The position numbers and the translations under genes are program-made. From Pseudomonadota bacterium (lineage in GTDB: Bacteria; Pseudomonadota; Gammaproteobacteria; Burkholderiales; Thiobacillaceae): DNA of 13,054 bases. Below, one piece after another: positions 3,215 through 12,976 of this stretch. The stretch is taken from NCBI GenBank assembly GCA_021791235.1, contig JAJYXA010000430.1:1-13054 (forward strand), read 5' to 3'. Numbering within the stretch: the first letter of the stretch is position 1; each line of letters begins with the position of its first letter. The notes beneath the pieces are model-generated. The model was given only the letters and a program-made list of their open reading frames with translations. It was not told where the DNA came from and did no database searches.

Positions 3215-3220
3215 GAATTG

Positions 3221-3868
3221 GTGGCTCTCATATTGAATATTTCCCCTGAGTCGCCGAAGAAGAGGCGAACCCACAAAGCGCGAGCAGCCCATCGGCTCGA
3301 TACGCGCACCGCACTGATCCGATGCGGCACTGAGCTGTGCACGCAAAGAGGCTTCCAGGTAAGCGGGATTAACGAGCTTCTGCAACGTGTCGGCGCGCCC
3401 AAGGGTTCTTTTTACCATTTCTTCTCAAGCAAACATGAATTCGGCGAAGCGGTAATCGATAACTACGCTGCGTACTTCCAGCGCAAGCTGGACCGTCTGT
3501 TAAGCGATAGCTCACGCCCTCCCTTGGAGCGCCTTGCCGGCTTCGTCAAAGAAGCGCAGAGGGGTATGGCCAAGTTTGATTTTCAGCGCGGCTGTCTGGT
3601 CGGCAATCTCGGACAGGAACTTGGCGGATTGAATGACAGCTTTCGTGGCCGACTCGAAGCGGTGCTGCTTTCGTGGGAACAGCGCACCGCAGCATGCCTG
3701 CGCGAAGCGATCGTCGCAGGTGATCTTGACTCCGAAGCCAATCCTGATGCGCTTGCCAAATTTTTTTGGATCGGATGGGAAGGTGCGATCTTGCGCGCAA
3801 AGTTGACCCGATCGGTCGCGCCGATGCGGCTTTTTGCCGAGTTATTCTTCAAGAAAGTGCTCTGCTGA
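3221..3868 (+). CDS. acuR: TetR-family transcriptional repressor, AcuR-like
   Basis: TetR-type regulator of about 215 residues. The N-terminal DNA-binding domain covers roughly residues 28-75, with TRTALIRCGTELCTQRGF as helix 1 and GINELLQRVGAPKGSFYHFF as the helix-turn-helix. The C-terminal ligand domain includes RGCLVGNLGQEL and WIGWEGAILRAKLTRS, a pattern shared with NemR and AcuR. AcuR represses acrylate-use genes together with acuI in Rhodobacter; here an acuI gene follows, once the IS630 element is removed, 48 bp downstream. That makes AcuR the best reading. GTG at 3221 is preferred as start because it coincides with the predicted transcription start; TTG at 3218 is directly in frame before it, and no ribosome site serves either. 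The leader of about 25 residues is rich in Lys/Arg. Cysteines at about residues 35, 40 and 124 could sense electrophiles such as acrylate derivatives, but this is conjecture. Confidence 0.75.
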   Translation: MALILNISPESPKKRRTHKARAAHRLDTRTALIRCGTELCTQRGFQVSGINELLQRVGAPKGSFYHFFSSKHEFGEAVIDNYAAYFQRKLDRLLSDSSRPPLERLAGFVKEAQRGMAKFDFQRGCLVGNLGQELGGLNDSFRGRLEAVLLSWEQRTAACLREAIVAGDLDSEANPDALAKFFWIGWEGAILRAKLTRSVAPMRLFAELFFKKVLC

Positions 3869-3884
3869 TTGTTTTGACCCATCC

Positions 3885-3886
3885 TA
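3885..3886. repeat. TA target-site duplication, left copy
   Basis: TA abuts the left inverted repeat of the IS630 element and matches the TA at 5051-5052 abutting the right one, as expected for IS630/Tc1-type insertion. Confidence 0.8.
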
Positions 3887-3909
3887 GTGTACTGAGTCAT
3901 AAGTTCGTT
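3887..3909 (+). repeat. Left terminal inverted repeat of the IS630 element
   Basis: It matches the reverse complement of 5028-5050 at 20 of 23 positions: the blocks GTGT, CTGAGTC and AAGTTCGTT are identical, with one and two mismatches between them. Confidence 0.9.
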
Positions 3910-3964
3910 GAACTAAGTGCATCCCTTGCTGTCTCACGATAAGGTGATCAGCGAGGGGAAGAAC

Positions 3965-5053
3965 ATGAGCCGAGGCCGACGGATGCCGGAGTTGAAATTG
4001 AGCGTTCAGGAGAATAATCGTTTGGTCGAATGGATGCGACGGGGCAAGACCTCGCAAGCGCTGGCGATGCGGGCGCGCATCATTCTGGCCGGGGCTAAAG
4101 GGCTGAACAATGGCGAAGTGGCACGGGATCTTCGCGTGACCCCGCAGACCGTTGGCAAATGGCGCAACCGGTTCATCGCCCGCCGGCTCGATGGCCTTTT
4201 GGATGAGCCCAGACCGGGCGCCCCGCGTAAGGTAGGTGACGAGCAGATCGAGCGTCTGATTGCCACAACGCTCAATCAGCTTCCGCGCGACGCCACGCAC
4301 TGGAGCACCCGATCGATGGCGACCAAGTGCAAGGTGTCGCAAAGCACCGTTAGCCGGATCTGGCGCACCTTCGGGCTGCAGCCACACCGCACCGAAACCT
4401 TCAAGCTGTCCACCGATCCGTTGTTTATCGATAAGGTACGCGACATCGTGGGCCTGTACCTTGATCCGCCGATGAAAGCGATGGTGCTGTGCGTGGATGA
4501 GAAGAGCCAGATTCAAGCTCTTGATCGCACCCAGCCGATGCTTCCCTTGGCACCCGGACTGCCGGAACGACGCACCCATGATTACCTTCGCCATGGCACG
4601 ACGACGCTGTTTGCCGCACTGGACGTTGCCACCGGCACAGTCATCGGCGAGATTCATCGGCGCCACCGAAGCTCGGAGTTTCTGAAGTTTCTGGCCACCC
4701 TGGAACACGAGACTCCCGCCAAATTGGACATCCATCTGATCATGGACAATTATGGTACTCACAAAACCCCTACGGTGCGCGCTTGGTTCGCCAGACACCC
4801 CCGCTTTCATGTGCATTTCACTCCGACCTCAACGTCATGGATAAACCAAGTTGAGCGCTGGTTCGCACTCATTACTGAAAAGCAGATCAGGCGCGGCTCA
4901 CACCGCAGCACCATCGCCTTGGAGACCGCTATTCGCGATTACCTCAACATCTACAATGAGAACCCTCGGCCATTCAAATGGACCAAGCACGCCGACGAAA
5001 TCCTTGCCAGCATCGCACGCTTTTGTAAACGAACTTCAGACTCAGGACACTAG
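3965..5053 (+). CDS. IS630-family transposase (DDE)
   Basis: Cut-and-paste transposase of 362 residues. The N-terminal half holds two helix-turn-helix units, [20 protein letters not shown] (47-66) and the [20 protein letters not shown] region (113-132), which bind the inverted repeats. The catalytic DDE domain shows Asp178 in [13 protein letters not shown], Asp261 in [10 protein letters not shown] and Glu297 in [10 protein letters not shown], with 35 residues between the last two, normal for IS630. ATG at 3965 is chosen because a GAGGGGAA ribosome site lies just before it; a GTG at 3917 in the same frame begins almost inside the inverted repeat. The stop codon TAG is unusual: its TA is the target-site duplication and its G comes from the host DNA, so the element carries no stop of its own. 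No frameshift is present. Confidence 0.95.
5028..5050 (-). repeat. Right terminal inverted repeat of the IS630 element
   Basis: It pairs with 3887-3909 (20 of 23 positions). It overlaps the last codons of the transposase gene, whose final codon CAC is also the last three bases of the element. Confidence 0.9.
5051..5052. repeat. TA target-site duplication, right copy
   Basis: Second copy of the TA target; it also supplies the first two bases of the transposase stop codon. Confidence 0.8.
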
Positions 5054-5082: not shown

Positions 5083-6066
5083 ATGTTCAAAGCCATACTG
5101 TTAGAACAAGAAGGAACACAGACCAAGGCGCGCATTGCGCAGCTGGACGAAGCGCAGTTGCCCGAGGGCGATGTCACGGTTGCCGTGGAATATTCCACAC
5201 TTAACTACAAGGACGGGTTGGCGATTACCGGAAAAAGTCCGGTAGTGCGAACTTGGCCGATGGTGCCTGGGATCGACTTCTCCGGGACGGTGGAGGTCAG
5301 TACAAACTCACGGTTCGGCGTCGGGGACAAGGTCGTACTGAATGGCTGGGGCGTAGGTGAGAACCGCTGGGGCGGCCTGGCGCAGAAAGCCAGGGTGCCG
5401 GGAGAGTTTTTGATTCCGCTGCCCAAGGGCTTGAGCGCGCGTGACGCGATGGCGATCGGCACTGCCGGATATACGGCGATGCTGTCGGTACAGGCACTGG
5501 AACGCGCCGGCATACTGCCAAACTCGGGCGATATCCTAGTAACCGGTGCGAATGGCGGTGTCGGCAGCTTTGCGATCGCAATTCTCGCCAAACGTGGTTA
5601 TCACGTCATTGCATCAACCGGCCGATTGGAAGAGACAACGCGATTACAGGGTCTGGGCGCGGCAGAGGTGATTGACCGCCAAAGCCTGGCGGACAAGGGC
5701 AAGCCATTGCAGAAGGAGCGCTGGGTAGGCGCGATCGACAGCGTTGGCAGTTACACCCTCGCCAACATCTGCGCTGCGACGAAATACGGGGGTGTGGTCG
5801 CCGCCTGTGGCTTAGCCCAGGGTATGGATTTTCCCGCGACTGTAGCTCCCTTTATTCTGCGCGGCGTCACGCTCGCGGGCATAGACAGCGTGAATGCGCC
5901 TCTGGCGAAAAGGCTTGCTGCCTGGGGATCTCTCGCGCAGGAAATTGACACAAAGATCATTGACGCCATTGTGAGCCAGGTGTCCTTGGAACAGGCGATC
6001 CCAACGGCAAGTTTATTGCTTGAAGGGAGAATCAAGGGCCGCGTGATTGTCGACCCCAATCTCTGA
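5083..6066 (+). CDS. acuI: Acrylyl-CoA reductase (NADPH), AcuI/YhdH family
   Basis: This zinc-free medium-chain dehydrogenase/reductase of 327 residues reduces acrylyl-CoA to propionyl-CoA with NADPH in the cytosol. It removes a toxic electrophile formed from acrylate, DMSP or 3-hydroxypropionate. The AcuI/YhdH signature is plain: EYSTLNYKDGLAITGK (36-51), PGIDFSGTV (62-70), GWGVGENRWGGLAQ (88-101), the nucleotide loop VTGANGGVGS (153-162), STGR (178-181) for the 2'-phosphate of NADPH, and AACGLAQG after it. Length agrees with E. coli YhdH (324). AAAGAG serves as ribosome site 4 nt before ATG. It was the second gene of an acuR-acuI operon until the IS630 element entered 32 bp upstream; its expression now must come from read-through or an element-borne promoter. 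The gene is complete and without defects. Confidence 0.9.
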   Translation: MFKAILLEQEGTQTKARIAQLDEAQLPEGDVTVAVEYSTLNYKDGLAITGKSPVVRTWPMVPGIDFSGTVEVSTNSRFGVGDKVVLNGWGVGENRWGGLAQKARVPGEFLIPLPKGLSARDAMAIGTAGYTAMLSVQALERAGILPNSGDILVTGANGGVGSFAIAILAKRGYHVIASTGRLEETTRLQGLGAAEVIDRQSLADKGKPLQKERWVGAIDSVGSYTLANICAATKYGGVVAACGLAQGMDFPATVAPFILRGVTLAGIDSVNAPLAKRLAAWGSLAQEIDTKIIDAIVSQVSLEQAIPTASLLLEGRIKGRVIVDPNL

Positions 6067-6231: not shown

Positions 6232-7197
6232 ATGCGTAAATTATCAAGGTGCGTTTCGCAGCTATTATTCGCAGTGCTTTTGCTCGGGACATCGTTTAGC
6301 GCACTGGCTGCATGGCCGGATAAGCCAATTGTCATCGTAGTGCCATTTCCGCCAGGAGGGAACACAGACATATTGGCGAGGTTAGTCGGACAAAAGCTGT
6401 CGATCAGCCTGGGGCAACCGGTAATCGTGGAAAACAAACCGGGGGCCGGCAGCATGATCGGCTCGCAAGTTGTTGCGCGGGCCAAGCCAGACGGATACAC
6501 CTTCCTCATGGGCAGCATTGCCAATGTGCTGAACAACTTTTTCTACAAGAAGCCGCTGTACGATATATCGAAAGATTTGATGCCGGTTTCCCAGCTTGTA
6601 GCGGTGCCGAATTACCTTGCGGTGAATAATAGTGTCAAGGCCCAATCGGTAAGCGACATTATCGCAATGGCAAAGGCGACTCCAGACAAGATCAGTTGCG
6701 CGAGCTCAGGTGTGGGAACGAGTCCTTATCTGTCGTGTGAACTGCTCAGAACAATGGCAGGCGTGAACATGGTAACCGTGGCCTACAAAGGTGGGGTGCC
6801 GGCGATGCAGGACGTCATGGGAGGGCAGGCTACCATGGTCATTGCAAATGAAGCCCTACCCTACATTAAAGACAAACGCCTAAAGGGAATTGCTGTCACG
6901 ACCGCGGTGCGCACACCGTTGGCGCCGGATCTGCCGACTATTGCGGAAACGCTGCCCGGATTCGATGTTACTTCCTGGTATGGCGTATTTGCGCCCACGG
7001 GCACTCCGCGAGAAATAGTGAACAAAATAAGCGCCGAGATAGCCAGCATACTGAAGATACCAGAGGTGGAAAAACGCCTTGAATCGCTGGGCGCAACCCC
7101 GGTCGGTAGTTCGCCAAAGGAGTTCGGCGACTACGTCAATGCGGAAATGATACGGTGGGAAAAGGCGCTCAAGCCGATGAATATTAATCTCGATTGA
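6232..7197 (+). CDS. Bug-family tripartite tricarboxylate transporter substrate-binding protein
   Basis: Periplasmic receptor of 321 residues that captures a carboxylate and either hands it to a TctAB-type membrane transporter or senses it. A Sec signal peptide is clear (positive MRKLSR, hydrophobic core LLFAVLLLGT, cleavage after ALA near residue 26). The mature part begins AWPDKPIVIVVPFPPGGNTD; the PFPPGG loop (38-43) is the family hallmark for the ligand carboxylate. GYTFLMG, SSGVGTSPYLS, VAYKGG and FAPTGTPREIVNK follow in the usual order, and the length is normal. A very strong AAAGGAGG ribosome site precedes the ATG. No TctA or TctB genes are in the window, which is common for Bug genes placed inside catabolic operons. 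It sits 165 bp after acuI and 66 bp before the CoA ligase, so the ligand is plausibly the acid that the ligase activates. Confidence 0.93.
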   Translation: MRKLSRCVSQLLFAVLLLGTSFSALAAWPDKPIVIVVPFPPGGNTDILARLVGQKLSISLGQPVIVENKPGAGSMIGSQVVARAKPDGYTFLMGSIANVLNNFFYKKPLYDISKDLMPVSQLVAVPNYLAVNNSVKAQSVSDIIAMAKATPDKISCASSGVGTSPYLSCELLRTMAGVNMVTVAYKGGVPAMQDVMGGQATMVIANEALPYIKDKRLKGIAVTTAVRTPLAPDLPTIAETLPGFDVTSWYGVFAPTGTPREIVNKISAEIASILKIPEVEKRLESLGATPVGSSPKEFGDYVNAEMIRWEKALKPMNINLD

Positions 7198-7263: not shown

Positions 7264-8889
7264 ATGCGAAACGTACCCCGCGTGTCGACCCAGCCCGTTG
7301 CGCCTGACGCGTTTGCGGCCACGGGCGCGGTACGAGCATCCCTAGGAGTCAACGTCATCGAGCGCACCGTGTCGCGTGTGTTGGCGTGGGCCGAACGGCA
7401 GCCGGACGCGCCGGCACTGCGCGACGAAGGCGCTGCCCTGTCGTATGGCGAGCTGGCCCTAGCCATTCATGAGACGGTAGCGACACTGCAAGCGCAGGGC
7501 ATAGAGTCCGGTTCCCGCCTGATGGTCATCGGCGAAAACAGCGTCGCGCTTGCAGTGCTGCTGCTAGCGGCAAGCCGGTTGGGCGCATGTGCGGTGCTGG
7601 AAAATGCGCGGGGCGTTCCGGCAGAAATCAAAGCGATCGTTGCCCATAGTCTGCCGAAGCGGATTTTCGTCGTCCTCGCGAATTCGCCGGACGCTCTACG
7701 CCATGTGTCGGCGCTGGACGCGCAACAGCAGCACACGCGAGCTCTGGGTACTTTCGGCGTCGCCGCGCCTGCCTCAGCCGCGAGTTGTACAGAGATAGAG
7801 TCGACTCCGGAACAGGTGGCCGCGATCATTTACACGACTGGGACAACCGGGCAGCCTAAAGGTGTGATGCTCACTCACGGCAACCTGTGCTTTATCGCTG
7901 GAATGATGCCGGTACTGCGGCACATGACGCCGCACGACCGCGTTTACGGCGTGCTTCCGATTACGCATGTCATGGGGCATGCGTCGGTGTTTCTTGGGGC
8001 TCTGCATGCGGGCGCCTCTCTCTATCTGGCTCCTCGGTTTTCGGTGCAGGAATGCGTCGCCACGCTGCTTGAGCAGCGTATCACGGCGCTGCAAGGAGCT
8101 CCCGCGATGTTTGCCAAGATCGCCGAATATTGCAAAGCGCGAGGTAGTATCCACTTCCCCGATATCCGGTTCATCGGCTCAGGTGGCGCACCCATCGACC
8201 CCTCGGTCAAACGCGAAGCCGAGCACTTATTCGGCCGCACCCTGCAAAATGGCTACGGCTTGACCGAAGCGGCATCGATTTGCTGGACCCGTTTCGAAGA
8301 CGTAAACGCAGACGATTCCGTCGGCCGCCCGCTGCCGGGGGTCGAAGTAGTCGTGCGCGACGCGAACGGGCAGCTCGTAGCCGCCGGTGAAATCGGCGAG
8401 TTGTGGATGCGCGGTCCGAATCTGATGCACGGCTATTTTCGCGACCGCGAGCAGACCGCGTCGGCGATCGACCAGGCAGGTTGGTTTAATACGCAGGATC
8501 TGGCGCGCATCGGGCCGGATGGCCGTGTATTTGTCGTGGGAAGAACCAAGGACATAATTATTCGGTCGGGTTTCAAAGTCTATCCACTAGAGGTAGAAGC
8601 GGTATTGAATGCGCATCCGGCGGTGTTGCATGCGGCCGTGGTCGTCCGGTCGGTGCCGGGCAACGAAGAAGTCATCGCCTATGTCGAACTCGCAAGGAAT
8701 TCGACCGTCGATGCCGGGCAATTGGCGCAATATGCGGCTCAAGCGCTTTCGCCGTATAAGCGGCCCAGCCATATTGTAATCATGCCGGCACTGCCACTTG
8801 CTGCAAACGGCAAGGTGCTGAAAAGTCAACTGCCGCGCTACGCCGCAGCGGATGCCGATTGGGAAAACCAAGTGAAAGGTGAAAGATGA
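7264..8889 (+). CDS. Acyl-CoA synthetase (AMP-forming, ANL superfamily)
   Basis: Cytosolic ligase of 541 residues that activates a carboxylic acid to its CoA thioester through an acyl-adenylate. The P-loop is TTGTTGQPKG (191-200), A5 is NGYGLTEAA (329-337), the hinge is GRTKDIIIRSGFKVYP (426-441, Arg427), and the adenylation lysine is Lys517 in AANGKVLKS. The usual TGD of motif A7 reads TQD (410-412); the ATP-ribose-binding aspartate Asp412 is kept. The first 30 residues before NVIERTVSRVL are not conserved in the family, and the ribosome site at ATG 7264 is weak, so translation may begin later, for example at GTG 7282. The gene overlaps the crotonase gene by 4 bp (ATGA), showing translational coupling. 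The acid substrate is not deducible; the position with a Bug receptor, a crotonase and AcuI favours a short-chain or substituted acid. Confidence 0.9.
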   Translation: MRNVPRVSTQPVAPDAFAATGAVRASLGVNVIERTVSRVLAWAERQPDAPALRDEGAALSYGELALAIHETVATLQAQGIESGSRLMVIGENSVALAVLLLAASRLGACAVLENARGVPAEIKAIVAHSLPKRIFVVLANSPDALRHVSALDAQQQHTRALGTFGVAAPASAASCTEIESTPEQVAAIIYTTGTTGQPKGVMLTHGNLCFIAGMMPVLRHMTPHDRVYGVLPITHVMGHASVFLGALHAGASLYLAPRFSVQECVATLLEQRITALQGAPAMFAKIAEYCKARGSIHFPDIRFIGSGGAPIDPSVKREAEHLFGRTLQNGYGLTEAASICWTRFEDVNADDSVGRPLPGVEVVVRDANGQLVAAGEIGELWMRGPNLMHGYFRDREQTASAIDQAGWFNTQDLARIGPDGRVFVVGRTKDIIIRSGFKVYPLEVEAVLNAHPAVLHAAVVVRSVPGNEEVIAYVELARNSTVDAGQLAQYAAQALSPYKRPSHIVIMPALPLAANGKVLKSQLPRYAAADADWENQVKGER

Positions 8890-9629
8890 ACGATGCCGTT
8901 ATCTACGAGTCACGCGATCGCATTGCAACCATCACGATAAATCGACCGAAACGACTCAACGCCATCAACGCCGAGGTCGAGACCGGATTGGCCGCGGCCT
9001 GGCGCCGTCTGAACGAAAGCGATGATCTCGTCGCGATCCTGACCGGTGCGGGCGACAAGTCGTTTTCGGTCGGCAAAGACCTTCAGTACGAAGCTGTGCC
9101 GGAGTACCGGCGCTTCGTGCCCGGATTCGATATTTGCGTAAATAAGCCAATCATTGCCGCGGTCGGCGGGTGGTGCGTGGGCGGCGGTCTCACGCTGGTG
9201 CAGATGTGCGATCTCTGCGTGGCTTCGGAAAACGCGCGCTTTTCGTATCCCGAAGCGAAACTGGGCTTTGCTGGCGGTCTGATTGCGTCCTTGGTGGCGC
9301 GCATCCCGCACAAGGTAGCCATGGAAATGATCTTGCTCGGGGACGAAGTGAGCGCGGAACGCGCCTACCAAGTGGGCTTTGTCAATAAAATCGTGCCGCA
9401 AGGCAAGCACCTCGAAGCGGCGCAGGAGTATGCGCGGCGGCTCGCGCAAAACGCACCGATGGTGCTTGCTATGTTCAAGAACTTTGTGGGCCAGGTTATT
9501 CCAAAGAGTCCGATGGAGTACGCCAGCCATGCCATGCGCGAGGTCGAGGCCGTGATGAATAGCGCCGACCGCAAGGAGGGCATGGACAGTTTCGTAAGCA
9601 AGCGAGCGCCGCGCTATCAGGGGCGGTAG
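8886..9629 (+). CDS. Enoyl-CoA hydratase/isomerase (crotonase family)
   Basis: Crotonase-fold enzyme of 247 residues, expected to add water across the double bond of an enoyl-CoA. The oxyanion hole is formed by SFSVGKDLQ (59-67) and VGGWCVGGGLTL (93-104). Both hydratase glutamates are present: Glu123 in ARFSYPEAKLGF and Glu147 in KVAMEMILLGD, in the positions of Glu144 and Glu164 of the rat mitochondrial enzyme. So a true hydratase is favoured over an isomerase with one acid. The first oxyanion motif has VGKD instead of the usual AGAD. The start overlaps the ligase stop, so the two products are probably made in step: activation followed by hydration. With acuI nearby, acrylyl-CoA hydration to 3-hydroxypropionyl-CoA is one possible reaction; other enoyl-CoAs fit as well. 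Confidence 0.88.
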   Translation: MNDAVIYESRDRIATITINRPKRLNAINAEVETGLAAAWRRLNESDDLVAILTGAGDKSFSVGKDLQYEAVPEYRRFVPGFDICVNKPIIAAVGGWCVGGGLTLVQMCDLCVASENARFSYPEAKLGFAGGLIASLVARIPHKVAMEMILLGDEVSAERAYQVGFVNKIVPQGKHLEAAQEYARRLAQNAPMVLAMFKNFVGQVIPKSPMEYASHAMREVEAVMNSADRKEGMDSFVSKRAPRYQGR

Positions 9630-9734: not shown

Positions 9735-10934
9735 ATGAAGGTCACCGCGCTGGAGACTCTGATTTGCGACGCTGGCTGGCGCAACTATTACTTTCTTAAA
9801 TTGACGACCGATACCGACATCGTCGGGTGGAGCGAGTTCGATGAAGGATTCGGGTCGCCGGGCGTTGCAACCATCATCAGCCAGCTCGGCAATCGCCTGA
9901 TCGGTAAATCGGTCATGGAGCATGAGCGCTTCTTCGCCGAAGCCGCCTGTCTCACGCGACCTGCCGCGGGCAGCGTGATCGCCGAGAGTATCGGCGCGAT
10001 CGAGAACGCGCTTCTGGACGCCAAGGCAAAGGCACTAAATGTGCCCTGCTATCAACTGCTCGGCGGTAAGGTCCGGGACCGTGTGCGGGTCTATTGGTCG
10101 CATTGCCCGACTTGGCGTATCAATCATTCGAAATATTTTCCACCTGCGGTGACCGATCTGGATGGCGTAAAGCGCACGGGCGCCGAGGCGCGGGAGAGGG
10201 GTCTTACCGCGCTCAAGACAAACATATTTATACACGATGAAGGGCCGGCGTATGCCTGGCGTCCTGGTTTTGCCGTGCCATTCTATCCTGAGCTGAACGT
10301 CGATCGTAAGGTTATACGTAATGTCCGGGCGCACTTGGAAGCCTTGCGCGATGGCGCCGGTCCCGACATGGACATACTGATCGACCTCAACTTCAATGCG
10401 AAGCCGGAAGGTTTCCTGAAGATCCTAAGGGCCATCGCAGACCTGGATATCTTTTGGGTCGAGATAGATAGCTATCAGCCCAAAGCGCTGGCGTATGTGA
10501 GATCTCACAGCCCCCACCCGATCAGTTCCTGTGAAACGTTGTTCGGTATTCGTGAATTTATGCCTTACATAACTGAACAGGCAATGGACGTTGCGATCGT
10601 CGACGCAGTGTGGAATGGCGTATGGCAATCAATGAAAATCGCGGCCGTACTGGACGCGCATGACGTGAACATGGCCCCACATAATTTCTACGGCGATTTG
10701 TGCACGATGATGAATTCGCATTTGGCGGCTGCCGTTCCCAATTTGCGGATCATGGAGACCGATATTGACCGCCTGCCTTGGGAGGACGAACTGTTCACGC
10801 ATGCGCCGGAGTATAAGGATGGTCATCTTGTTGTTCCCGACCGTCCGGGCTGGGGTACCGATCCGGTCGAAGAGGCCATCCGCGCGCATCCACCAAAGAT
10901 CGCGGGCGGTTTGTTGCAATATAAGCGAGCGTAA
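9735..10934 (+). CDS. Enolase-superfamily enzyme (mandelate racemase/muconate lactonizing type)
   Basis: Protein of 399 residues with the capping domain (about 1-130) and TIM-barrel of the MR/MLE group, which abstract a proton next to a carboxylate held on Mg2+. The three metal ligands are visible: Asp217 in ILIDLNFN, Glu243 in FWVEIDSYQP and Glu267 in SSCETLFG. Lys161 in TALKTN takes the place of the barrel lysine of the KxK or KxN motif. His316 in MAPHNFYG, with Asp290 in IVDAVWNG, resembles the His-Asp pair of acid sugar dehydratases. This points to a dehydratase or racemase for a hydroxy or sugar acid. An AAGGAGAG ribosome site stands 6 nt before ATG. It follows the crotonase after a 105-bp gap and comes 76 bp before the acyl-CoA dehydrogenase homologue. 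It works on free acids, so it would act before the ligase. Confidence 0.88.
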   Translation: MKVTALETLICDAGWRNYYFLKLTTDTDIVGWSEFDEGFGSPGVATIISQLGNRLIGKSVMEHERFFAEAACLTRPAAGSVIAESIGAIENALLDAKAKALNVPCYQLLGGKVRDRVRVYWSHCPTWRINHSKYFPPAVTDLDGVKRTGAEARERGLTALKTNIFIHDEGPAYAWRPGFAVPFYPELNVDRKVIRNVRAHLEALRDGAGPDMDILIDLNFNAKPEGFLKILRAIADLDIFWVEIDSYQPKALAYVRSHSPHPISSCETLFGIREFMPYITEQAMDVAIVDAVWNGVWQSMKIAAVLDAHDVNMAPHNFYGDLCTMMNSHLAAAVPNLRIMETDIDRLPWEDELFTHAPEYKDGHLVVPDRPGWGTDPVEEAIRAHPPKIAGGLLQYKRA

Positions 10935-11010
10935 ACTCTACCGCCGAACATCTGCCGCAGGCACATCATTCGCAATTCAATCTCCGCAAACAGAAATAGC
11001 TGGTAAATAC

Positions 11011-12186
11011 ATGGATTTTCAACTCGACGAAGCACAGAAAATGTTGGCTGACCTGGCCGAGCGCATGGGGCGCGAGCAGTTCGCGCCGAAGGCGGCGCGC
11101 TGGGACCGCGAGCACGCATACCCGCATGAGAACGTAGAGGCGCTGCGCCGCGCCGGACTGCTGGGCATGACCATACCGAAGAAGTTTGGCGGACCCGAGC
11201 GGCCGCTGATCGACGTGGTGCTGGCGATCGAGAGAATCGCGAAATATTGCGGCGTGACTGCGCGCATCGTGGTCGAAACCAATATGGGCGCGCTCGGCTG
11301 CATCATGGCCTACGGCAGCGAGGCGCAGCAGCGCGAAATCGCGGGGCGCGTGCTCGAGGACGGCGACAAGCCGGCCATAGGCATGACCGAGCCCGGCGCC
11401 GGCACCGATCTGACCGCGCTCAAAACCACCGCGCGCGAGCGCGCCGGCAGCTATGTGCTGAACGGGCGCAAGCACTGGATCACGGGCGGCGGCGTTTCGA
11501 GGACCAACCTGATTTTCGCCCGCATCATCGACAGCAAGGGAGCGGACCAGGGCATAGGCGGCATCCTGGTCGATCTGGGCACGTCGGGTTTCTCCATCGG
11601 ACGGGTCGAGGACGCGATGGGCCTGCGCGGGATTCCCGAGGCCGAACTCGTATTTGAGGACTGCGCGGTGCCGGCAGCCAATCTGGTCGTTTGCGACGTC
11701 AAGGTCGGATTCAAGAAGCTCATGAACGGCTATAACGCTCAGCGCATAGGCGCATCTTCCGTCGCGCTCGGCCTGGCGCAGGGTGCACACGACCTGGCGC
11801 TCGAGTACATGGGGCAGCGCGAGGCCTTCGGGCAGAAACTCAAGGATTTCCAGGGATTGGACTGGATGATGGCCGAGGGCGAAATCAAGCTCGAAGCCGC
11901 GCGCCTGCTCATATACCGCGCGGCCTGCAATGCGCGTCGGCTCGCGAACAACGTGATGCTGCCGCAGATGAAGGAAGCCTCGATCGCCAAAGCCTACACC
12001 GGACACGCGGCGTTCGAGGTCGTGAGCGAGTCGCTGCAGATGTTCGGCGCCGCCGGCTACTCGCGCGACCTGCCGCTGGAGCGCATGCTGCGCGACGTGC
12101 GCATGTTCCAGATCGGCGGCGGAACCTCCCAGGCCCAACTGAACATGATCGCGCGCAGCATTTTTGCCGCAAATTCACGTCTGTAA
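11011..12186 (+). CDS. Acyl-CoA dehydrogenase-fold protein lacking the catalytic glutamate (desulfinase-like)
   Basis: FAD-dependent ACAD-fold protein of 391 residues. Start at MDFQLDEAQK matches the family; an upstream frame open to 10765 is not used. Landmarks: AIGMTEPGAGTDL (122-134) and WITGGGVS (156-163) at the flavin, QREAFGQKLKDFQG (269-282), and QMFGAAGYSRDLPLER (343-358). Counted back from AFGQ, the base of isovaleryl-CoA dehydrogenase (Glu254) falls on Gln244 in GYNAQRIGAS. The medium-chain base (Glu376, before GT) falls on Gly370 in QIGGGTSQAQ. Hence no usual base is present and ordinary alpha,beta-desaturation is doubtful. I recall that 3-sulfinopropionyl-CoA desulfinase of Advenella has a glutamine at this site and an important arginine near residue 84; Arg85 is present here (GVTARIVV). 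Function as a desulfinase or other non-oxidising enzyme is an inference. Base composition is GC-richer than the preceding four genes. No strong ribosome site is visible. Confidence 0.85.
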   Translation: MDFQLDEAQKMLADLAERMGREQFAPKAARWDREHAYPHENVEALRRAGLLGMTIPKKFGGPERPLIDVVLAIERIAKYCGVTARIVVETNMGALGCIMAYGSEAQQREIAGRVLEDGDKPAIGMTEPGAGTDLTALKTTARERAGSYVLNGRKHWITGGGVSRTNLIFARIIDSKGADQGIGGILVDLGTSGFSIGRVEDAMGLRGIPEAELVFEDCAVPAANLVVCDVKVGFKKLMNGYNAQRIGASSVALGLAQGAHDLALEYMGQREAFGQKLKDFQGLDWMMAEGEIKLEAARLLIYRAACNARRLANNVMLPQMKEASIAKAYTGHAAFEVVSESLQMFGAAGYSRDLPLERMLRDVRMFQIGGGTSQAQLNMIARSIFAANSRL

Positions 12187-12301: not shown

Positions 12302-12976
12302 ATGCGGATGATGAAACGATTTGATGCTTACCTGTCGAGACTGTGCGAAGTGCTGGGACATGCCGATCGTGACGTGCCGATGCGCGAATACTGCACCGGA
12401 CTGATGTTGCCGCTCAAGCGAAAGAGCGTGGAGCCGATTGCCGCGCACATAGGGCCGCAAGCGGTGAGCGCCAAACACCAATCGCTGCTGCACTTTGTGG
12501 GCAACTCGATGTGGTCGGATAAAGCAATGTTGCGCAGCATTCATGACTACGTGATGAAGCGTGTACCTGAGACTGGGCGCAAGGGATGGGTCTTGGTGGT
12601 CGATGACACCGGACACCCCAAGCAAGGGCGCGATTCGGTTGGTGTTGCGCGGCAGTACTGCGGCATGTTGGGCAAGACCGATAACTGCCAGGTGGCGGTG
12701 AGCGTATCGAAGGCCAACGCGCTGATGAGTTTGCCGCTGGCTTACCGGTTGTATTTGCCGCAGGAATGGGTGAAGGATGCGCCGCGGCGCAAGGCTGCCA
12801 AGGTGCCGGCAGAAGTGTGCTTCGCCACCAAGCCGCAGATTGCTCTGGAGCAACTCGCCTGGGCCTGCGAGCAAGGCATGGCTGTCGGAGTCCAAGCGGT
12901 GCTCGCCGATAGCGCCTACGGCACCGAGTACGCGTTCCGGCAAGGTAAGCGTCCCCAAATCCCCGTACTACCGTAG
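12302..12976 (+). pseudogene. IS701-family transposase, interrupted by an IS66-family insertion
   Basis: The N-terminal part of an IS701-type DDE transposase: VVDDTGHPKQG (99-109, first catalytic Asp at 101/102) is followed by GVARQYCGMLGKTDNCQVAVSVS and, further on, VQAVLADSAYGTEYAFRQ with the second Asp at 203. The family has about 400 residues or more and a third acidic residue after this point. Here native sequence stops at about 12944, after residue 214; KRPQIPVLP and the stop are read from an inserted IS66-like end. ATG at 12302 has a GAGGTG ribosome site 7 nt upstream. The left end of this element must lie in the 115 bp after the dehydrogenase (12187-12301); I could not identify its inverted repeat because the right end is outside the window. 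The element is dead unless its remainder is supplied elsewhere. Confidence 0.85.

Follow-up and report, generated by a model that had tools for sequence, protein, structure and literature searches.

To our knowledge, the desulfinases of 3-sulfinopropionyl-coenzyme A (3SP-CoA) have so far come from a small number of aerobic bacteria that degrade man-made sulfur compounds. The enzyme AcdDPN7 of Advenella mimigardefordensis is said by Schurmann et al. to bind flavin adenine dinucleotide (FAD) and to perform no dehydrogenation, and its Arg84 reportedly matters. The subject of this analysis is a homolog of these enzymes encoded in the window, which is the whole 13,054-nt stretch of contig JAJYXA010000430.1 from a member of the Thiobacillaceae (assembly GCA_021791235.1). 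In the passages of PMC6370202 that deal with the Variovorax paradoxus enzyme AcdA, 3SP-CoA is split into propionyl-CoA and sulfite, and acdA and act are neighboring locus tags. In Advenella, according to the excerpt of PMC5373536, the desulfinase gene is situated between the genes of a family III acyl-CoA transferase and the dioxygenase Mdo, with LysR and TctC genes near.

The gene of the window encodes an acyl-CoA dehydrogenase (ACAD) homolog, which is probably a non-dehydrogenating, sulfite-releasing member of the 3SP-CoA desulfinase superclade. This reading is based on its sequence, signature residues, tree position and predicted fold. The gene and the codons of the signature residues are as follows:

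11011 to 12186, forward strand: desulfinase-like ACAD homolog of 391 amino acids, assigned to clade A (open reading frame (ORF), profiles, alignment and tree)
11263 to 11265, forward strand: codon of Arg85, equivalent to Arg84 of AcdDPN7 (alignment)
11740 to 11742, forward strand: codon of Gln244, equivalent to Gln246 of AcdDPN7, within the YNAQR motif (alignment)
12118 to 12120, forward strand: codon of Gly370 at the second base position, equivalent to Gly366 of AcdDPN7 (alignment)

The ORF was complete, beginning with ATG at 11011 and closing with a stop codon that ends at 12186. The frame was also open from an upstream TTG at 10765, yet close relatives start at MDF or MEF, as the ATG start would give. 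The N-terminal, middle and C-terminal ACAD domains (PF02771, PF02770 and PF00441) all scored above the Pfam gathering score. The initial annotation had placed Gln244 and Gly370 at both usual positions of the catalytic base and had pointed to Arg85 and YNAQR, all of which were confirmed by translation and alignment. The catalytic Glu of a functional ACAD was thus missing from both positions, and by the usual mechanism the protein should not be a dehydrogenase. Arg85 was located in the helix of residues 81-91. The best match, by sequence and by predicted fold, was the 3SP-CoA desulfinase of Advenella, and the NCBIfam desulfinase model NF042439 ranked first. Both the Arg84 and the Gln246 equivalents expected of the desulfinase superclade were present.

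The non-dehydrogenase, desulfinase-like placement proposed earlier was borne out by the trees, the signature residues and the predicted fold. The trees were built by quick searches, with the Shimodaira-Hasegawa-like approximate likelihood ratio test (SH-aLRT) as the sole support measure and no bootstrap. In the 71-row tree, composed of 57 superclade rows and 14 outgroup rows of other ACADs, the window protein was found together with AcdDPN7 inside a superclade of clades A, B and D (SH-aLRT 99) and not within the other ACADs. The superclade was split into clade A (16 rows, SH-aLRT 100) and clades B+D (41 rows, 98), the latter including clade D (8 rows, 100). The same picture was given by a tree of 100 rows, six of them outgroup rows (A 99, B+D 98, base of the superclade 83). 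The outgroups from the window's own genome were long-branched, and the outgroup row L110a of the 71-row tree was very long. The related loci were the best 80 of 264 relatives; the genus genomes L010-L016, identical to the named loci L019-L024 and L041 and therefore not independent, did not enter the trees.

The window protein was a member of clade A, sister to B+D, and not of clade D, which contained AcdDPN7, a V. paradoxus protein named desulfinase, a P. phenoliruptrix protein and a Cupriavidus necator N-1 protein that has reportedly been assayed. The signature is now seen in a separate clade of Betaproteobacteria (the window protein, a second copy from its genome, Burkholderiales metagenome-assembled genomes, Pollutimonas, Pseudothauera and Alicycliphilus (P0113)), Bacillota genera of sulfate reducers (Desulfosporosinus, Desulfotruncus), Thermodesulfobacteriota and one Chloroflexota genome. 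Two genomes labelled Myxococcota also belonged to clade A.

The Arg, Gln and Gly residues and the motif YN[A/G/S]QR were kept in 83 of 83 distinct superclade sequences (92 rows from loci L002-L098, own included, 47-100% identity), with YNAQR in 32, YNGQR in 26 and YNSQR in 25, so the signature in the window protein is not due to chance. The alignment also included six further ACADs of this genome, and none of these had Arg85 or Gln244; five of them had Glu at one base site, and L008 had it at neither (27% identity, with a less sure alignment). Among the ACADs compared, the Arg and Gln pair was seen in the desulfinase superclade only. The missing base alone was unspecific, since the ACAD L102b of Sagittula sp. 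P11 had Thr and Gly at the base sites and no Arg85. This plasmid gene (L102:6998-8140), a second base-less lineage outside the desulfinase superclade, was found beside another ACAD, CoA-transferase, hydratase and TRAP genes. In viral contigs, one stretch fitted a pattern and none coded for a relative.

Very probably, the C-S bond of a short acyl-CoA is broken by the window protein without dehydrogenation. The protein would bind FAD together with a short acyl-CoA that ends in an anionic group, and the cleavage would yield propionyl-CoA and sulfite, not an enoyl-CoA. We propose that Arg85 may grip the sulfinate and that Gln244 may replace the base because no alpha-proton would be taken.

It is also reasonably likely that 3SP-CoA is the main substrate in this bacterium. 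A route from mercaptopropionate to sulfite is likely to exist in its genome. 3-Mercaptopropionate would be converted to 3-sulfinopropionate by an Mdo-like dioxygenase and then to 3SP-CoA by an Act-like class III CoA-transferase; 3SP-CoA would be cleaved by the clade A enzyme, present in two copies, and the sulfite would leave through a TauE/SafE-type exporter. Two Mdo-like dioxygenases are encoded in the genome at a distance of about 2 kb from SoxB (53% and 42% identity to the protein of P. phenoliruptrix), and two such genes were recorded in five genus genomes, own included. A 107-aa protein is encoded between the two dioxygenase genes near SoxB on contig C104 (L125:5491-7109 of G000). The gene of the Act-like CoA-transferase (52%) is on contig C5 and has a TauE/SafE gene and a TRAP transporter as neighbors.

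The second copy of the desulfinase-like gene is found on contig C23 (G000:C23:6949-8115; L002, L124), and its protein is 94% identical to that of the window. In C23 and three genus relatives (L020, L022, L041) the ACAD gene is directly preceded by a crotonase-family gene; those of the relatives are 86-88% identical to the C23 one. In L024 the gene directly upstream of the ACAD gene encodes a cystathionine beta-lyase; such a gene also lies further upstream in C23, L041 and, in partial form, L022. In Pollutimonas bauzanensis (L030:6232-11179), MetQ-, MetN- and MetI-like genes, a methionine gamma-lyase-like gene and the clade A gene stand in a row. The C-S lyase genes near clade A in the genus hint at sulfur amino acids. 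The Mdo-like dioxygenases, the Act-like transferase beside TauE/SafE and the C-S lyases near clade A in the genus and Pollutimonas lend support to a desulfinase-type enzyme.

The neighbors of the related genes were searched by BLAST with chosen queries in 23 named clade A loci, to which the C23 locus was added separately; several loci in the count of CoA-transferase neighbors were cut by contig ends. A class III CoA-transferase gene adjoined the ACAD gene in 9 of the 23 loci, and it was Act-like in one of them, Pseudothauera, where the two frames overlap by 4 nt. The Pseudothauera CoA-transferase was 60% and 62% identical to those beside clade B/D enzymes, that is, of the same kind, and this pairing is the best genomic evidence that clades A and D may share a substrate there. 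The other eight came from presumed anaerobes, a status derived from their names and DsrA; seven of them, compared all against all, were 59-87% identical to each other and only 39-45% identical to the Act-like ones (L099, L101). Several anaerobe loci also contained genes of PrpR-like sigma-54 regulators and of TRAP or ABC transporters. As for the other clades, the CoA-transferase gene of P. phenoliruptrix adjoins acdA, with a cysteine-dioxygenase-type gene about 6 kb off. The desulfinase gene of Mesorhizobium loti stands after that of a CoA-transferase and before that of a putative sulfate exporter, with LysR ahead of the three on the opposite strand, and the stretch also holds propionyl-CoA carboxylase and methylmalonyl-CoA mutase genes.

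Several observations weigh against a 3SP-CoA desulfinase in the window. We know of no assay of any clade A member. The window protein is 43% identical to AcdDPN7, and its NF042439 score of 476 bits missed the cut-off of 600. The latter agrees with the earlier remark that the enzyme would be missed by annotation; that remark held in part, as the desulfinase model nevertheless ranks first and 4 of the 120 relatives listed carry the JGI name 3-sulfinopropanoyl-CoA desulfinase. With at most four candidates scored per genome, a match to NF042439 at E<=1e-105 was obtained in 4 of 399 genomes taken by order (own included), 2 of them over the cut-off. No CoA-transferase gene of the kinds sought was found beside the ACAD gene in 14 of 23 clade A loci, in the window or in C23. 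Mdo-like genes are common (26 of 60 related genomes, own included). Within the genus they occurred in 8 of 8 genomes with clade A (own included) and in 2 of 6 without it, which fits a 3-mercaptopropionate route, although these genomes are related, not independent and of unequal completeness. Outside the genus, 13 genomes with clade A were searched, and 12 of them, Pollutimonas and the 11 presumed anaerobes, had no Mdo-like gene (E<=1e-10), so that another substrate may be used there; if clade A were a desulfinase in these anaerobes, its substrate would be made elsewhere or be another sulfur acid. Mesorhizobium was also without Mdo, but its plasmid alone was searched.

The absence of Mdo-like genes from the 11 presumed anaerobes, the different kind of CoA-transferase in the eight presumed-anaerobe loci, the long branches that part clade A from B+D and the sulfur-amino-acid C-S lyase genes nearby in the genus and Pollutimonas would suit an enzyme with the same base-less scaffold and another substrate. 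It would cleave the C-S bond, or remove another substituent, of a different short acyl-CoA whose end is anionic, for example 3-sulfopropionyl-CoA or an acid that stems from sulfur amino acids. We regard this as possible and somewhat unlikely, given that the columns invariant over clades A, B and D include C80, R85, N91, Y241, N242, Q244 and R245, and that the Act-like partner in Pseudothauera and the Mdo co-occurrence in the genus point to 3SP. An ordinary ACAD with another acidic residue as the base is improbable. Its ACAD domains are complete, TetR, FadE-like, 3-hydroxyacyl-CoA dehydrogenase and thiolase genes follow the ACAD gene in several loci of the genus (L019-L021 and C23), and these genes together with the preceding crotonase genes would equally suit beta-oxidation. 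However, the protein groups with the desulfinases and apart from the base-bearing ACADs, and the characterized enzymes of the desulfinase type are reportedly non-dehydrogenating. There is also a very slight chance that the window holds a duplicate of the C23 gene that is silent or in decay. The homology between the two is limited to the gene (11009-12159, 91.9%), with flanks not common to both, insertion sequence (IS) elements are present in the region, and the contig ends 17 bases past the window end; against this stand the intact frame, all the signature residues and a ratio of nonsynonymous to synonymous substitution rates (dN/dS) between the copies of 0.12.

A possible role of clade A in sulfite reducers was also considered. 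The search for DsrA covered 13 of 23 genomes with clade A (L027-L039), the ten left over being betaproteobacterial, and 13 hand-picked of the 57 clade B genomes; DsrA was over the cut-off in 8 of 13 and 1 of 13, respectively (Fisher p 0.011, with lineages that are not independent). In a second clade B genome DsrA was in two pieces on two contigs, below the cut-off, and the match in the Chloroflexota genome contained two stop codons. We tentatively suggest, as a rather doubtful idea, that clade A could be an unrecognized C-S-cleaving acyl-CoA enzyme of sulfate or sulfite reducers that releases sulfite straight into dissimilatory sulfite reduction. A partner CoA-transferase would activate 3-sulfinopropionate or 3-sulfopropionate, and, with no need of a glycyl radical enzyme, the organosulfur acid would provide carbon through propionyl-CoA and at the same time accept electrons. 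In Betaproteobacteria such as that of the window, clade A would have become joined to an oxygen-dependent mercaptopropionate route. According to a passage of PMC11489063, Enterococcus gilvus produces 3-sulfopropionate and Bilophila wadsworthia uses this acid as an electron acceptor, and an excerpt of a 2026 review calls the route of its degradation in B. wadsworthia unclear (PMC12890257). A link of 3-sulfopropionate and Bilophila to clade A is speculation, and if it held, clade A may bear on that route. A literature search found no paper joining 3-sulfinopropionate, sulfate-reducing and acyl-CoA dehydrogenase. If the clade A proteins were desulfinases, the annotation as acyl-CoA dehydrogenases would be a misnomer for a set of genes, and anaerobes would have an unrecognized source of sulfite.

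The remaining features of the window surround the gene:

3218 to 3868, forward strand: AcuR regulator (over the NCBIfam cut-off)
3884 to 5053, forward strand: IS630-family element between AcuR and AcuI, with 26-nt inverted repeats that are 88% complementary
5083 to 6066, forward strand: AcuI, acrylyl-CoA reductase (over the NCBIfam cut-off)
6232 to 7197, forward strand: TctC solute-binding protein (profile)
7264 to 8889, forward strand: AMP-forming acyl-CoA ligase (profiles)
8886 to 9629, forward strand: enoyl-CoA hydratase/isomerase family protein (profiles)
9735 to 10934, forward strand: enolase-superfamily protein (MR_MLE), the upstream neighbor, a linkage not seen elsewhere (profiles and regions of relatives)
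12302 to 12976, forward strand: transposase gene downstream of the ACAD gene (DDE_5, partial against the profile)

The AcuI-to-enolase block is disrupted by the IS element and of foreign composition. The G+C content at third codon positions (GC3) was 0.61-0.73 in the AcuR, AcuI, TctC, ligase, hydratase and enolase genes and 0.83 in the ACAD gene, the latter being like the 0.78-0.88 of 13 ORFs picked elsewhere in the genome. A search of the 23 named clade A loci at E<=1e-20, with matches over half the query, turned up no gene like the AcuI, ligase, hydratase or enolase gene of the window. Because of the GC3 shift, the IS insertion, the flanks not common with C23 and the company absent elsewhere, the block tells little about the substrate of the ACAD homolog. 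The initial annotation had taken this block with AcuI and a CoA ligase as support, which proved weak, and an operon was not relied on, as the block genes stand beside no other clade A locus searched and differ in GC3. Two parts of the idea deserve mention: the crotonase-family genes preceding the ACAD gene in C23 and the three genus relatives are distant relatives (27-28%) of the window hydratase, and a TctC gene does occur in the Advenella cluster (excerpt of PMC5373536). A beta-elimination of 3-sulfopropionyl-CoA to acryloyl-CoA, followed by AcuI, had been attractive because AcuI is close by; it was rejected, since it needs a base for the alpha-proton, which is absent, and a linkage with AcuI was observed nowhere else.

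A ligase match at E<=1e-90 was obtained in 2 of 199 genomes, own included, and among the matches listed (8 of 22 records) the plasmid relatives of the ligase were 46% identical at most. In 12 regions around close enolase relatives (64-73%) the other block genes were absent, save TctC-like ones in two. Three plasmid regions with enolase relatives were inspected, those of Cupriavidus and Rhodococcus being without annotation. On the Agrobacterium tumefaciens LN-1 plasmid (L104:4337-11670) an enolase relative (59%) is found among PatB-type C-S lyase, OsmC and D-cysteine desulfhydrase genes, a sulfur-flavored context.

The closest systems may finally be compared. The short-chain and butyryl-CoA dehydrogenases 5ol2, 4l1f and 1jqi share the fold and the flavin domain of the window protein; 5ol2 and 4l1f have a Glu opposite Gly370, which we take to be the base in dehydrogenases of this type, and no Gln at the Gln244 site. 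Glutaryl-CoA dehydrogenase (3mpi and 1siq, structurally aligned at 27% and 21% identity) has the same fold, binds the far carboxylate of its substrate by an Arg, and oxidizes and decarboxylates it using a Glu base. AcdDPN7 (5AF7, 5AHS) and AcdA have the same fold and no catalytic Glu, and the window protein, which is 44-45% identical to a V. paradoxus protein, shares with AcdDPN7 the Arg84, Gln246 and Gly366 equivalents and the RGIPE and YNAQR motifs. Unlike these two enzymes, the window copy belongs to the separate clade A, scores below the NF042439 cut-off and has no act-acd-mdo cluster around it. The clade B protein WP_019863718.1 of Mesorhizobium loti NZP2037, annotated as 3-sulfinopropanoyl-CoA desulfinase, is 49% identical to the window protein and has the same signature residues, and it groups with clade D rather than with clade A.
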